Below are positions 44,411-59,103 of a stretch of DNA of 64,000 nt, piece after piece. The stretch's first letter is position 1, and every line of letters starts with the position of its first letter. The position numbers and the translations under genes are program-made. Source of the DNA: Flaviaestuariibacter sp. (GTDB lineage Bacteria; Bacteroidota; Bacteroidia; Chitinophagales; Chitinophagaceae); NCBI GenBank assembly GCA_025963645.1, contig JAOQAI010000013.1:124001-188000 (forward strand), read 5' to 3'. The notes beneath the pieces are model-generated. The model worked only from the letters and a program-made list of their open reading frames with translations, ran no database searches and was not told the DNA's origin.

Positions 44411-44449
44411 TAGTAACACTTTAAAGAGGCGGCAAGATAGGAAAAATAA

Positions 44450-44588
44450 CCTCACCTTAACCCTCTCCTGCGTGTAGAGGGAAACAGCCGCCGCACAGAC
44501 CCGGATCGTGCAGTAGGCTTTTAGTTATGGATAAATAAGTTGGCCTCTGCGTAGAAGCTCCTCGCCTTCAGGAGAGGCGGGGGTGAGG
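44450..44588. repeat. Composite palindromic element, copy A
   Basis: 139 bp between ftsX and the DUF3098 gene. Outer halves CCTCACCTTAACCCTCTCC and GGAGAGGCGGGGGTGAGG face each other; inner halves GCCGCACAGACCCGGAT and TGGCCTCTGCG are conserved with copies B (50269) and C (58918). Unlike them it lacks the central terminator-like stem. Confidence 0.85.
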
Positions 44589-44591
44589 TCT

Positions 44592-45496: not shown

Positions 45497-45563
45497 GCCC
45501 TTTGCAACAAAAGTCGGTGGCAGTGTTGCCAAAGCTTTGTCAAAACGGAAGGTTCAGATGGCT

Positions 45564-45571
45564 TATTTTTG
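45564..45571 (+). promoter_or_regulatory. Promoter -7 box of leuS
   Basis: TATTTTTG, exact TAnnTTTG match. It predicts a leader of about 155 bases made largely of ACCACAAAGACACGAAG and CTCTGTGCGCCTCTGTGG, which are imperfectly complementary. Confidence 0.5.
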
Positions 45572-45730
45572 TCACTCTAACGATTGCCTGTCAAAGAATA
45601 TTGCCACAAGGCGGCGAACCACAAAGACACGAAGAACGAAAAGCGTCACAAAGGATTTCTCTGCGGTACTCTTATTCTCTCTGTGCGCCTCTGTGGGCAA
45701 TCATTTCAAATACCAAATTTCAATTCGTTA

Positions 45731-48700
45731 ATGGAGTATAATTTCAGACAGATCGAACAAAAGTGGCAGCAGAAATGGGTGGATGACGGCGCTTATAAAG
45801 TGCCGAATGTTTCCGATAAGCCCAAGTATTATGTGCTGGATATGTTTCCGTACCCAAGTGGCGCGGGACTGCATGTGGGTCATCCGCTAGGCTATATTGC
45901 CTCCGATATTTTTGCCCGCTACAAGCGCCTGAAAGGCTTCAATGTGCTGCACCCGATGGGTTATGATGCTTTTGGATTGCCGGCGGAACAATATGCCATT
46001 GAGCACGGCGTGCATCCGGCTGTTTCCACCGCAAAGAACATCAGCACCTTTCGCAGCCAGTTAGATAAGATCGGCTTTTCGTTCGACTGGAGCCGCGAGG
46101 TAAATACTTCTCACCCCGGCTATTACAAATGGACGCAGTGGATCTTCCTGCAATTGTTCAAAAGTTTTTATAACCGGCAAACGCAAAAGACCCAACCAAT
46201 AGATGGCTTAATAAAGTTGTTTGAGACCGAAGGCAACAAGCAGCACCCGATTCCTAACCCGGTATTTCAAATTCCAACCTCCGGCTCGCAAACCTTTAGC
46301 GCTGACGATTGGAAATCCTTCGACGAAGCCACCCAGCAAGCCATCCTTATGGAATACCGTGTCGCCTATTGCGGGTATGGCGAAGTGAACTGGTGCGAGG
46401 CTTTAGGTACCGTATTGGCGAATGACGAAGTAGTGAATGGTGTCAGCGAACGGGGCGGTTACCCGGTAGAAAAGAAGCGTCTTCGTCAATGGTACCTGCG
46501 CATTACCGAATACGGCGACCGCCTGCTGCAAGGCCTGCAAACCGTGGACTTCAGCGATGCGATGAAGGAAATGCAGAGCAATTGGATCGGTAAGAGTAGT
46601 GGGGCTGAGATAGAATTTCGCCTCACGCCCAGCTCCTCTCCACAAGTGGAGAGGAGAGAAGAACCAACCTTGGAAGAACCTTATCCCAAATACGGCGTTA
46701 CGGATCGACTCCAATATGAGAATGCACGAAAGAACCGTAAGGGCAGCACAGAAGCAGAAGCAAAACTTTGGGATGTGCTTCGCAACAGCAAAACCGGATA
46801 CAAATTTCGTAGACAACATCCTGTAGATAGCTTCATGGCTGATTTTGCATGCTTGCAAAAAGGATTGATTATAGAAGTAGATGGTGGTTATCACAACTAT
46901 CCTGATCAAAAAGAATATGACGCGTATAGAACTACTGTTTTAGAAAGCAAAGGATTTATCCTCCTTCGTTTCACCAATGAAGAAGTGTTGGCAGATGTTT
47001 ATGTAGTTCGTAACAAAATAAAAGAAGTACTTACTAATCTAAACGAAGCAAAAGCCGAAAGCGACCCAGCTCCCCTCTCCAACAGAGTTGAAGAGGGGCT
47101 GGGGGTGAGGTGCTACACCACCCGCCCTGACACCATCTTCGGTGTGGATTTCATGGTGCTGGCCCCCGAACATGAGTTGATTGAGAAGATCACTATCGGC
47201 GAGCAACGCAGCGCTGTGGAAGAATACATCGCGTATGTAAAAAGCCGAAGCGAACGCGAACGTATGTCCGAAAAAAAGATCAGCGGGGTCTTCACCGGTG
47301 CACATGTGGAGCATCCGTTTACCGGCAAACCCATTCCAGTGTGGATTTCAGAATATGTGCTCGCAGGTTACGGCACCGGCGCTATCATGGCCGTGCCAAG
47401 TGGCGATGAACGCGATCATAAGTTTGCACAGCATTTCGGTATTCCCATCACCAATATTTTCGGTGAAGCTTACACCGGCGAAGAGGCCGTCACCTCGAAA
47501 GACCTGGTGCTGCACGAAAGTGATTTTGTGAATGGTTTAAAATACAAAGAGGCTGCGGAGATCGTTATCAACAAATTGGAAGAAGAAGGCATTGGCAAAC
47601 GCAAAGTGAACTTCAAGATCCGTGATGCGGCCTTTAGCCGCCAGCGTTATTGGGGCGAACCGTTTCCTATTAAGTGGATCAATGGCATTGCGTATCCGTT
47701 GGATGAAAGAGAGCTGCCATTGGAGTTGCCGCATGTGGATACGTACAAGCCCGGACCAGAAGGCGAAGGTCCGCTGGCGAACATTCCGGAGTGGTACCTC
47801 ATCCCTAACCCTTCTCCGCAGGCGGAGAAGGGAACCGATAGCGGAGAGGCTGCTACTCCCCTCTCCAACTTTGTTGGAGAGGGGCTGGGGGTGAGGGAGA
47901 CAAACACGATGCCAGGCTATGCAGGTTCATCCTGGTATTTCCTGCGTTACATGGACCCGCACAACGATGCTACTTTTTGCAATAAAAACATTAGCGATTA
48001 CTGGGGGCAAGTGGACCTGTATGTAGGTGGAACCGAGCATGCCGTTGGGCATTTGCTTTACAGCCGCATGTGGACGAAGTGCTTGTATGATCTGGGATTA
48101 ATCTCTTTTGATGAGCCGTTTAAAAAATTGTTGAATCAGGGGATGATCACAGGAAAATCATTCTTTGTTTCGAAAGCAAATTACAGAGCGATTGGGAGCG
48201 GTGAATCAAAGCTTTGGATTACCTCACTCAACCCAGAAAGTGAATTTCAAAGCCCTAGATCTTTTCAAGAAAAAGACTGGATAAAAGATGCTGGAATTGA
48301 GACGCAGAGATTAAAAAATGCACATAAGTATTTAGATGCTTATGGAAGACTAACTAAATCAATGTGGGAAAAATATAAGCGTGATCATGAAGATTTAGAT
48401 CCAGACATTGAGGTCGATTTTGAAACAGATAGTGAAAATAATGGTGAGCAATTCATCTCGGGTATGGTTATCGAGAAGATGTCCAAATCAAAGTTCAATG
48501 TTGAGAATCCTGATGACATTGTTCTTCAATACGGCGCTGACACTTTTCGCATGTACGAGATGTTCCTCGGTCCGGTAGAAATGAGTAAGCCCTGGGATAC
48601 CAAAGGCATCGAAGGTGTTCACCGTTTCCTCAAAAAGCTATGGCGCTTGTTTGCGGCTGAAAGCGGATCATTGATAACCACTGATACCGCTACACCTGCC

Positions 48701-49162
48701 GAACTGAAAGTGCTCCACAAGACCATCAAAAAAATAGAAGAAGACACCGAACGGTTTTCTTTCAATACTTGTGTGAGCGCCTTCATGGTTTGCGTGAACG
48801 AACTGACGGATCTGAAATGCAGCAAGAAAGAAGTTTTGGAGCCGGTACTGATTTTATTGACGCCGTATGCACCGCACATCGCTGAAGAACTCTGGCACTT
48901 CCTCGGAAACACAACTTCTATTTTAGATGCTTCCTTTCCGAAACTCGAAGAAAAATATCTGGTAGAAAGCACCAAAGAATACCCGATCTCCGTCAATGGC
49001 AAACTCCGTACAACGATCAATATTGAACTTTCTGCCGATGCCCACGAAGTGGAAAGCATCGTGCTGCAAAACGAGGTGGTTCAGAAATGGCTCGAAGGCA
49101 AGCAACCGAAGAAGATCATTTTTGTAAAAGGCAAGATGGTGAATGTGGTTACCTCACCCTAA
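45731..49162 (+). CDS. leuS: Leucyl-tRNA synthetase carrying two palindrome-bounded in-frame inserts
   Basis: 1143 residues from ATG 45731; Bacteroidota LeuRS is normally about 930-950. Class I catalytic motif HVGH (48-51) and KMSKS (916-920) are intact, as is the editing domain (TTRPDTIFG, GDERDHKFA). Two inserts explain the excess: residues about 298-460 (DUF559 nuclease domain, nt 46621-47110) and about 689-722 (nt 47797-47897). Removing them leaves about 946 residues. Both inserts lie at the base of the CP1 editing domain, a site that can loop out. The segment before KMSKS (nt 48241-48420) is AT-rich, about 33% G+C by hand count, and unlike the usual sequence. The last residues (VTSP) and the stop come from a palindrome. 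Confidence 0.95.
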   Translation: MEYNFRQIEQKWQQKWVDDGAYKVPNVSDKPKYYVLDMFPYPSGAGLHVGHPLGYIASDIFARYKRLKGFNVLHPMGYDAFGLPAEQYAIEHGVHPAVSTAKNISTFRSQLDKIGFSFDWSREVNTSHPGYYKWTQWIFLQLFKSFYNRQTQKTQPIDGLIKLFETEGNKQHPIPNPVFQIPTSGSQTFSADDWKSFDEATQQAILMEYRVAYCGYGEVNWCEALGTVLANDEVVNGVSERGGYPVEKKRLRQWYLRITEYGDRLLQGLQTVDFSDAMKEMQSNWIGKSSGAEIEFRLTPSSSPQVERREEPTLEEPYPKYGVTDRLQYENARKNRKGSTEAEAKLWDVLRNSKTGYKFRRQHPVDSFMADFACLQKGLIIEVDGGYHNYPDQKEYDAYRTTVLESKGFILLRFTNEEVLADVYVVRNKIKEVLTNLNEAKAESDPAPLSNRVEEGLGVRCYTTRPDTIFGVDFMVLAPEHELIEKITIGEQRSAVEEYIAYVKSRSERERMSEKKISGVFTGAHVEHPFTGKPIPVWISEYVLAGYGTGAIMAVPSGDERDHKFAQHFGIPITNIFGEAYTGEEAVTSKDLVLHESDFVNGLKYKEAAEIVINKLEEEGIGKRKVNFKIRDAAFSRQRYWGEPFPIKWINGIAYPLDERELPLELPHVDTYKPGPEGEGPLANIPEWYLIPNPSPQAEKGTDSGEAATPLSNFVGEGLGVRETNTMPGYAGSSWYFLRYMDPHNDATFCNKNISDYWGQVDLYVGGTEHAVGHLLYSRMWTKCLYDLGLISFDEPFKKLLNQGMITGKSFFVSKANYRAIGSGESKLWITSLNPESEFQSPRSFQEKDWIKDAGIETQRLKNAHKYLDAYGRLTKSMWEKYKRDHEDLDPDIEVDFETDSENNGEQFISGMVIEKMSKSKFNVENPDDIVLQYGADTFRMYEMFLGPVEMSKPWDTKGIEGVHRFLKKLWRLFAAESGSLITTDTATPAELKVLHKTIKKIEEDTERFSFNTCVSAFMVCVNELTDLKCSKKEVLEPVLILLTPYAPHIAEELWHFLGNTTSILDASFPKLEEKYLVESTKEYPISVNGKLRTTINIELSADAHEVESIVLQNEVVQKWLEGKQPKKIIFVKGKMVNVVTSP
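46621..47110 (+). mobile_element. REP-bounded DUF559 nuclease element inserted in frame in leuS
   Basis: The insert starts with CCTCACGCCCAGCTCCTCTC and its inverted partner GAGAGGAGA, and ends with CCCCTCTCC...GAGGGGCTGGGGGTGAGG. Between them is a DUF559 domain (Vsr-like, PD-(D/E)XK): NARKNRKGSTEAEAKLWDVL, FRRQHPVDSF, Asp371 in MADFAC, Glu382 and Asp384 in IIEVDGGYH (His388) and VLRF-like ILLRFTNEEV. Catalytic positions look complete. Edge peptides LTPSSSPQVER and PLSNRVEEGLGVR are nearly repeated at the second insert. There is no start codon or promoter of its own, so it is made only as part of LeuRS. Confidence 0.85.
47797..47897 (+). repeat. Short palindromic element inserted in frame in leuS
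   Basis: 101 bp made of two hairpins: CCCTTCTCCGC-AG-GCGGAGAAGGG and CCCCTCTCCAAC-TTT-GTTGGAGAGGGG, closed by GGGGGTGAGG. It adds about 34 residues (LIPNPSPQAEKG ... PLSNFVGEGLGVR) just before the conserved TMPGYAGSSWYF. Same reading frame and end peptides as the DUF559 insert, but no nuclease. Confidence 0.85.
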
Positions 49163-49197
49163 CCCTCTCCTTGAAAAGGAGAGGGTTAGGGTGAGGT
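49151..49197. repeat. Perfect palindrome shared as the 3' end of two convergent genes
   Basis: Two exact 22-base arms around the loop GAA. The top strand supplies the leuS TAA (49160-49162) and the bottom strand supplies the TAA of the convergent gene (49186-49188); both proteins therefore end in TSP. The stem lacks a U tract but could terminate or protect both messages. Confidence 0.9.
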
Positions 49198-50232
49198 TTT
49201 CTTCAACCGTATCACCGCACTGCTATTCTCGGTGCTGGCCAGTTTTGCCGAATACCGTTTGCCTTCCACCGTTGCTACCATGTAAGAAGTGTTGGGTGGA
49301 ATGGCACCGAGGTTTTCTGCGACCATCGTCAACTCATTATCGGCACTTAGGTCTTTCGTCGAGAGCTTAATGATGTAAGGTTTATCAGTCAAGCGAATAT
49401 GTTGAAATAGCAGGCGGTCATTTAAAAACAGCGAGATCGAATCGCCGTCCACTTCTGCGTTGTCATAAAAATGCAGCTCGATGGAATCCCCGGTAACTGG
49501 GATATCCATCACGAAAGTTTTCTGCCGTGTCGTAAACTTTTCTTCAATGGTTTGCGGCTTTACTACAGCTACTTCCGGCTGCGGTTCTTTGACTGGTTCT
49601 GCTTTCCGTTTCGGTGCCGGCATCGGTGGAATCGAAACCATGCTGGGTCGACGGTTGCGCACCAATACAGGCTCCGGCTTTTCTGTGGGTGGAGCAGCCG
49701 GCTTAGGACCAAGTGCTACGAGTTCAATGCTGTCAATAATGTCTGGGTCATTGCTACCGATCGTATAATTGTCAATCACATAATCCCATTCATCGGGAAA
49801 GTTCGGTCCCGATGCTTTGGTCAGGTCAACCGGGCTCTTTGAGCTTTCTGTGTTCTCTTTAGGAGTCGCCTTTCCTTCCAAGTACATCTTACCACCACCC
49901 GGGCAGTTAAAGTCTGCCACCGAAAGCTGCGGTTCGGTCTTCCCAAACAGAAGCCGCCCTTTCTCATCTAGCAGTTGGTCATCCCACCAAACCACGCTGT
50001 TGTCTCGTGCATCAAAATACCCCTTAATGCTGTAACGCTTGTAGTTATTGGCGGTTTCAAAATAGTAGGCCGTGCCGGTCAGGCTATCGCCGTTCTGTAT
50101 GATCTTCAACTCCACTTTCTTCTTATCGATCCGCCCTTTCCAAACACCGGTGATCTGCTGTGCAGAAAGCGAAGTGGTGCCAACCAAAAACAGTAGCACA
50201 AAAAGTATAGGGTGAGCTTTCAACAGGTGCAT
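49186..50232 (-). CDS. Secreted protein of unknown function
   Basis: 348 residues from ATG 50232, which opens a signal peptide (cleavage near LSAQQ). An N-terminal beta domain (ITGVWKGRIDKKKVELKI, lipocalin-like strand pattern) of about 120 residues, a Pro/Lys-rich linker (about 190-235, PAPPTEKPEPV and PKRKAEPVKEPQP), and a C-terminal beta domain (VMDIPVTGDSIELHFYDN). Function unknown. Its last codons are inside the palindrome shared with leuS. Confidence 0.7.
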   Translation of the reverse strand: MHLLKAHPILFVLLFLVGTTSLSAQQITGVWKGRIDKKKVELKIIQNGDSLTGTAYYFETANNYKRYSIKGYFDARDNSVVWWDDQLLDEKGRLLFGKTEPQLSVADFNCPGGGKMYLEGKATPKENTESSKSPVDLTKASGPNFPDEWDYVIDNYTIGSNDPDIIDSIELVALGPKPAAPPTEKPEPVLVRNRRPSMVSIPPMPAPKRKAEPVKEPQPEVAVVKPQTIEEKFTTRQKTFVMDIPVTGDSIELHFYDNAEVDGDSISLFLNDRLLFQHIRLTDKPYIIKLSTKDLSADNELTMVAENLGAIPPNTSYMVATVEGKRYSAKLASTENSSAVIRLKKTSP

Positions 50233-58914: not shown

Positions 58915-58917
58915 ACA

Positions 58918-59102
58918 CCTCACCCTAACCCTCTCCTCGCAGGAGAGGGAACAGCCACCGCACAGACCCGGATAGTACAGTCTTCATTATGAAATAGAAA
59001 AAGCCCTCAACAGATTTGTGTTGAGGGCTATATATTATTATCGTTGCAAAGCTGGCCTTCTGTGCGTAGAAGCCCCTCTCCTTCAGGAGAGGCGGGGTGA
59101 GG
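58918..59102. repeat. Composite palindromic element, copy C
   Basis: 185 bp filling the gap between convergent ruvB and a response regulator gene. Left CCTCACCCTAACCCTCTCC-TCGCAGGAGAGGG, inner ACAGCCACCGCACAGACCCGG, central stem GCCCTCAACA...TGTTGAGGGC (59003-59028), inner AAGCTGGCCTTCTGTGCG, right CCCCTCTCC-TTCAGGAGAGGCGGGGTGAGG. Inner CGCACAGA pairs with TCTGTGCG. Confidence 0.88.
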
Positions 59103-59103
59103 T

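Follow-up and report, generated by a model that had tools for sequence, protein, structure and literature searches.

The window analysed here, a stretch of 64,000 nucleotides, contains leuS, encoding leucyl-tRNA synthetase (LeuRS), at 45731..49162 (+) as a single frame of 1143 aa, which runs from an ATG at 45731 to the stop codon at 49160-49162 and scores 888.5 bits against TIGR00396 (cut-off, 548.4). At site 1, this host gene carries an in-frame insert of 490 bp (46621..47110, +), located between EIEF and CYTTRPDTIFG of the protein, with inverted ends, hairpins, and a nuclease domain; the same site is empty in relatives. The left end (46621..46642, +) is 86% complementary to the right end (47089..47110, +), the two forming an imperfect 22-nt inverted repeat, and C-first hairpins are present both on the left (46633..46656, +; perfect 11-bp stem) and on the right (47072..47098, +; 12-bp stem with one mismatch, 92%). 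The DUF559 nuclease domain, of the Vsr/EDxHD fold (46715..47032, +), is recognized by Pfam (PF04480, 104.8 bits; cut-off, 20.6), by its predicted fold, and by its catalytic residues, with Glu343, Asp371, Glu382, Asp384, His388, and Asp397 all present. A preliminary description had reported an in-frame DUF559 insert in this 1143-codon gene, with palindromic ends and catalytic residues in place, which the Pfam match, the inverted repeat, and the hairpins confirm. As 490 bp is not divisible by three, either the flanking bases were altered at insertion or the true ends are slightly different.

Missing from that description were (i) a second in-frame element at leuS site 2 (47797..47896, +), composed of two hairpins with a 25-nt spacer, lacking a nuclease and resembling the site 1 element in appearance, and (ii) a 47-nt palindrome (49151..49197), perfect and with arms of the same sequence type, which supplies the leuS stop codon. 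Site 2 holds full elements at other loci (L029, L044, L128, and others), and two full nuclease elements, one per site, were seen within one leuS in L029, L128, L185, and L192. The window also contains two related repeats (44449-44589 and 58917-59103) in which common non-coding DNA is enclosed by C-first hairpins and by ends of the form ACCTCACC...GGTGAGGT; these are apparently MITE-like, and similar hairpin pairs occur on other contigs of the same genome. That genome (2.57 Mb, 63% complete) has four DUF559 matches; besides the one in leuS, one splits ispG in frame (L001), and the other two occupy frames of 150 codons.

Of the 117 family genomes, 114 yielded a leuS segment, and 16 have frames of at least 1060 codons; the remaining complete-looking frames span 914 to 1047 codons, some of them ending at a contig edge. 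DUF559 was present at site 1 in 7 of 30 loci (one locus per genome), and both sites were empty in the same-genus genomes G104 and G004, the sister-species comparison that the preliminary description had suggested. Judged from these empty sites in congeners, the leuS insert is an insertion. The pattern set against it beforehand, a palindrome-free domain in LeuRS of all Bacteroidota, is not what was observed, since empty sites and hairpins were both found. In genus g86 (7 genomes), aroC carries the element in G215, G086, G163, and G347, is occupied with broken frames in G322, and is empty in G294 and G260. Leucyl-tRNA synthetase site 1 of genus g28 (12 genomes) is more varied, comprising a type A nuclease (L114, L179, L183, and L189), a type B nuclease (L182, L185, and L188), a solo hairpin (L184), a short relic-like loop (L180), and empty sites (L181, L186, and L187). 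The solo hairpin is in frame, and its arms resemble the outer ones of type A elements; scar-like remnants were seen in L179 and L188 and, by peptide, also in L116 and L129. Together with the clean empty sites of congeners (leuS in L181, L186, and L187; aroC in L173 and L174), the solo hairpin and the remnants contradict the earlier proposal that loss of the element would be lethal.

Scans for DUF559 were positive for 209 of 394 genomes of the family and for 222 of 395 of the phylum. The best-scoring matches, which were those listed and fetched, gave 202 distinct domains, 145 embedded in frames of at least 230 codons and 57 free-standing. Sorted by flanking peptides over all fetched loci, the embedded copies fall into leuS site 1 (26), leuS site 2 (12), aroC (10), three sites of metH (20), ileS (8), cinA and metG (7 each), recG (6), lhr and hsdR (4 each), valS (3), adeC, TDO, and icmF (2 each), and ispG, acs, miaB, mcm, and priA (1 each); the other 27 were assigned to none of these genes, and some of them lie in frames barely above 230 codons. 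Pfam confirmed examples of the hosts leuS, TDO, aroC, cinA, metH, metG, ispG, an amino-acid kinase, trpA, icmF, recG, priA, a hisF-type gene, hsdR, and lhr, as well as class I synthetases of which one was read as ileS and one as valS, while adeC, acs, miaB, mcm, and other host names were assigned by eye. In argB-like, trpA, and hisF-type genes, DUF559 is fused N-terminally and not inserted. The suggested search of the phylum for DUF559 frames in other host genes was productive, with 145 of 202 domains embedded in many genes, and on comparison of these loci the element is a family recurring in many different genes of Bacteroidota. With its intact nuclease, its lack in close relatives, and its occurrence in further genes, it matches the protein-compatible, inserted palindromic element that had been proposed.

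All but two of the best 80 of 574 confirmed loci in named genomes look, by title, like Bacteroidota, a bias partly due to the Bacteroidota query; the exceptions are an Aminicenantes bin and an Anaerolineales bin. A plasmid search returned 38 records, none of which reached 60% identity. Class I tRNA synthetase genes (leuS, metG, ileS, and valS) hold 56 of the 145 embedded copies, several of them close to where the editing or connective domain starts or stops. The G+C content of host-embedded nuclease domains is lower than that of the flanking genes (mean, 0.37 versus 0.44). One hsdR frame (L021:106-3318) encodes not only DUF559 but also, in the same frame, a GIY-YIG domain (PF01541 in Pfam; residues 265-331), a second, unrelated homing-type nuclease within one protein, a combination for which no second copy was seen among the fetched loci.

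The ends of the element were evaluated with a rule that scores a C-first perfect stem of at least 6 bp within 160 nt of the DUF559 domain, under which the right hairpin of the window, having one mismatch, counts as a miss. Embedded copies carried such a hairpin upstream in 121, downstream in 123, and on both sides in 110 of 145 cases, free copies in 33, 44, and 30 of 57, and control windows from the same loci in 52 of 2020. By this rule, 24 of the 145 embedded copies lack the upstream and 22 the downstream hairpin (e.g., metH L216, L243, and L264). A first score, set against a shuffled null, reached the 99% level on both sides in 43/145 embedded and 11/57 free copies; because it fits short stems badly, the stem rule and real control windows were chosen. 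Terminal inverted repeats were above chance in many, not all, of 100 domains tested. The loops are mostly 3 nt, and the median hairpin-to-hairpin span is 456 bp. Stem sequence varies from copy to copy with pairing retained, and at leuS site 2 compensatory changes (CAC/GTG and CGC/GCG) were seen by eye. One palindrome is translated as LTPNPSPKERG, TSPLTPLQGRG, or PHPWPLSKGEG, appearing in three reading phases on the left (13, 10, and 2 of 25) and on the right (25, 9, and 1 of 35). Since the same palindrome yields differing peptides, the recurring entity is the DNA and not the peptide. In pairs from different host genes, hairpin-arm similarity tracks nuclease identity (r = 0.26; maximum of 1000 permutations, 0.11). 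Inspection by eye revealed no target motif at the element sites. Nor was a target-site duplication, as in a classical IS or MITE, seen by eye, the flanks being too diverged.

The nuclease itself appears to be well preserved. In 128 domains, a sample biased to high-scoring, intact ones, D371 is kept in 127, E382 in 128, D384 in 125, H388 in 128, and D397 in 128 (window numbering), which is not the degradation of catalytic residues in most copies that the preliminary description had named as counting against it. Fourteen same-site pairs had a dS below 1; for the nuclease, dN/dS was 0.05-0.15 in 11 of them and 0.48-0.62 in the remaining 3, which are distant leuS site 1 pairs. These values indicate that the nuclease is under selection in most close pairs. 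For a model of the DUF559 domain (pLDDT 86.9), Foldseek placed two PDB entries foremost, the endonuclease-like 3hrl and I-Bth0305I, a homing endonuclease (3r3p_B; E 1.7e-4, TM 0.59 by query), with a weaker match to E. coli Vsr (1vsr; E 0.042). The model of whole LeuRS was poor (pLDDT 65.7, pTM 0.47) and was used for the insert alone; in it, the palindrome-coded linkers are predicted to be disordered and the nuclease well ordered. As to how the nuclease is made, a left hairpin precedes 121 of the embedded copies, and the stretch from that hairpin to domain residue 20 offers an in-frame ATG in 60 of them, GTG or TTG alone as a possible start in 38, and no start codon in 23; the window copy, examined by eye, lacks an ATG between hairpin and domain and has a TTG. 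The earlier claim that the nuclease is expressed only within the host enzyme accordingly holds for some copies only, given the available ATG in 60 of 121 and the free frames in 57 of 202.

Taken together, these observations very probably describe a mobile, nuclease-carrying palindromic element residing in frame within essential genes, and its mobility over evolution is well supported by the comparison of sites. The movement itself is probably homing-like and driven by the element's own nuclease, which would make the element autonomous, as had been proposed. The reading that we favour, and think rather likely to be right, is a homing-like, nuclease-carrying palindromic element retained where a protein loop tolerates insertion. 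The element, about 0.46 kb long, consists of a stop-free DUF559 nuclease frame enclosed by two inverted, C/G-rich ends that form hairpins, and its cycle may be outlined as follows: (i) the nuclease, produced as one domain of its host protein, would nick or cut an unoccupied or hairpin-bearing site; (ii) repair would copy the element into the cut site, as in homing; (iii) copies would be retained when they are in frame in a tolerant protein loop, with the host gene paying for expression; and (iv) the element could be lost in frame, perhaps by deletion between hairpins whose arms repeat each other, leaving behind a solo hairpin that would then decay.

The strongest competitor to a homing-like element takes the structure for two REP palindromes, paired as in a REPIN and mobilized by a REP-associated tyrosine transposase (RAYT, Y1 family), with the nuclease as cargo or hitch-hiker, which we regard as unlikely on the following evidence. 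Of 174 genomes with a strong DUF559 match (E < 1e-10), 66 contain the exact hairpin CCCCTCTCC-N3/4-GGAGAGGGG, against 12 of the 220 genomes lacking one (odds ratio, 10.6), an association only, as some of the hairpins are DUF559 ends and related genomes are non-independent; the reversed control pattern gave 0. When only DUF559 genomes are considered, the hairpin is found more often alongside a strong Y1 match (53/118) than in its absence (13/56), as a RAYT mover would predict, and strong Y1 matches were found in 40 of the 58 carrier genomes listed. Moreover, 25 such hairpins are present in G039, a genome without any DUF559 match, and 34 in G233, which has one weaker DUF559. Both contain many REP-like repeats with the same hairpin, and those of G233 share long conserved tails; the 16 loci inspected there (L270-L285) are REP-like with a one-sided tail, several with TTAG, GTAG, or GGAG before CCTCAC. 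The element therefore has this hairpin in common with REP-type repeats. On the other hand, hairpin and DUF559 associate in genomes without strong Y1 as well (13/56 versus 3/110 without strong DUF559) and not only in those with it (53/118 versus 9/110). Of the 58 listed carriers, 12 have weak Y1 matches only and 6 have none (G000, G052, G289, G130, G012, and G367), of which G052, G289, and G130 are 99-100% complete; the window genome, which is 63% complete, is one of the six. Finally, as to the GTAG tag of REPs moved by RAYTs, a TAG immediately precedes CCTCAC in just 3 of the 41 left ends with a CCTCAC-type hairpin among the DUF559 elements. On this genomic evidence, the case for RAYT as the necessary mover is weakened, although RAYTs may still have a part.

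A second alternative, which we find quite improbable, is that the element has no mobility of its own and that transfer of whole host genes with recombination spreads a few ancient insertions. Site labels do cluster strongly in the nuclease tree (35 label changes versus 87.9 in shuffles), in which 67 of 125 inner branches are unresolved and at least one label is wrong (L049, an aroC copy labelled metH_C), and inheritance would give such clustering of same-site copies too; for the leuS site 1 label, well-supported branches force just one change. Embedded and free copies are largely separate in this tree, with an 83-row part (SH-aLRT 95) holding none of the 34 free rows. Type B elements of genera g28, g30, and g13 also occupy one identical leuS site, and in a silent-site comparison for recent transfer the silent sites were near saturation. 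Against a spread by host genes alone, related nuclease-hairpin pairs reside in different genes, the palindrome at the aroC site is read in two phases, and L114 and L182 have similar hosts (90% identity over 200 LeuRS residues beside the site) and yet differing nucleases (42%). Least probable of the three is a recruited domain retained for useful host work such as repair or defence. The purifying selection noted above would suit it, as would the Caulobacter DUF559 protein VsrA, proposed to act in very short patch repair (PMC12907096); its patchy presence, unrelated host functions, hairpin ends, and scars, as well as weak PADLOC matches (E 4e-4 to 4e-6) for the two proteins tested, argue otherwise. 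As to a defence system, PADLOC gave the same two proteins weak matches only, including one (E 1.5e-5) to a model named "homing endonuclease". Three further candidates were rejected: an intein, the window protein having no intein family among its Pfam matches; a group I or II intron, the frame being open throughout and 45500-49300 giving no Rfam match; and chance or assembly error, as the pattern occurs not in metagenome bins alone but also in isolate-titled records, including Dysgonomonas sp. PF1-14 (leuS), Winogradskyella (metH), Marinilabilia (ileS), Pedobacter chinensis (hisF), and Flavobacterium difficile, Tenacibaculum larymnensis, and Aequorivita todarodis (all recG).

The homing-like element could, as a tentative proposal, represent a new class of mobile element, hairpin-ended and splice-free, whose nuclease would persist as a lasting domain of essential host proteins, whose in-frame deletion scars would be one source of orphan palindromic repeats, and in which DUF559 would move palindromic repeats lacking a known transposase. 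No description of such an element, and no paper linking DUF559 with leucyl-tRNA synthetase, was found in the open literature, where none of the 14 papers mentioning DUF559 is, by title, about it; subscription journals and bioRxiv lay largely outside this search, so that a description may exist in print. If correct, the proposal would (i) show a nuclease living inside essential enzymes without splicing, in translation, metabolism, and repair genes of one phylum; (ii) offer a candidate enzyme for palindromic repeats of unexplained movement, for example the CGTC REPs, whose mover is left open in PMC3733652; (iii) account for annotated synthetases of unusual size and for strange linker peptides; and (iv) mark protein loops able to accept a whole extra domain.

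To conclude, the element shares features with several known systems. A 2022 paper already placed a DUF559 gene in the EDxHD homing endonuclease family (PMC9403480), and members of this family are described within group I introns or inteins or as free-standing genes, with extended DNA-binding parts (PMC3943268). The predicted fold and the E/D/H/D-type residues of DUF559 resemble those of I-Bth0305I-type enzymes; the element differs in having no splicing part, and the nuclease would stay as part of its host. The palindromic elements of Rickettsia and intragenic REPs are translated palindromes within genes, including those for tRNA synthetases and repair, coding for some 20-82 residues (PMC3733652). 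The DUF559 element is likewise a palindromic repeat inserted and read in frame, with the difference that it carries a nuclease gene, which is unreported for those repeats in the sections of PMC3733652 that describe them. Inteins with homing endonucleases also place a nuclease domain in frame inside conserved proteins; the linkers of the DUF559 element, unlike theirs, vary in length, sequence, and phase, and no intein family is among the six Pfam families of the window protein. REPINs have a Y1 transposase, RAYT, as partner and are mostly intergenic. With them the element has in common inverted, C/G-rich hairpin pairs and mobility, and it differs in that its enzyme, a Vsr-like nuclease rather than a Y1 transposase, is encoded between the hairpins.
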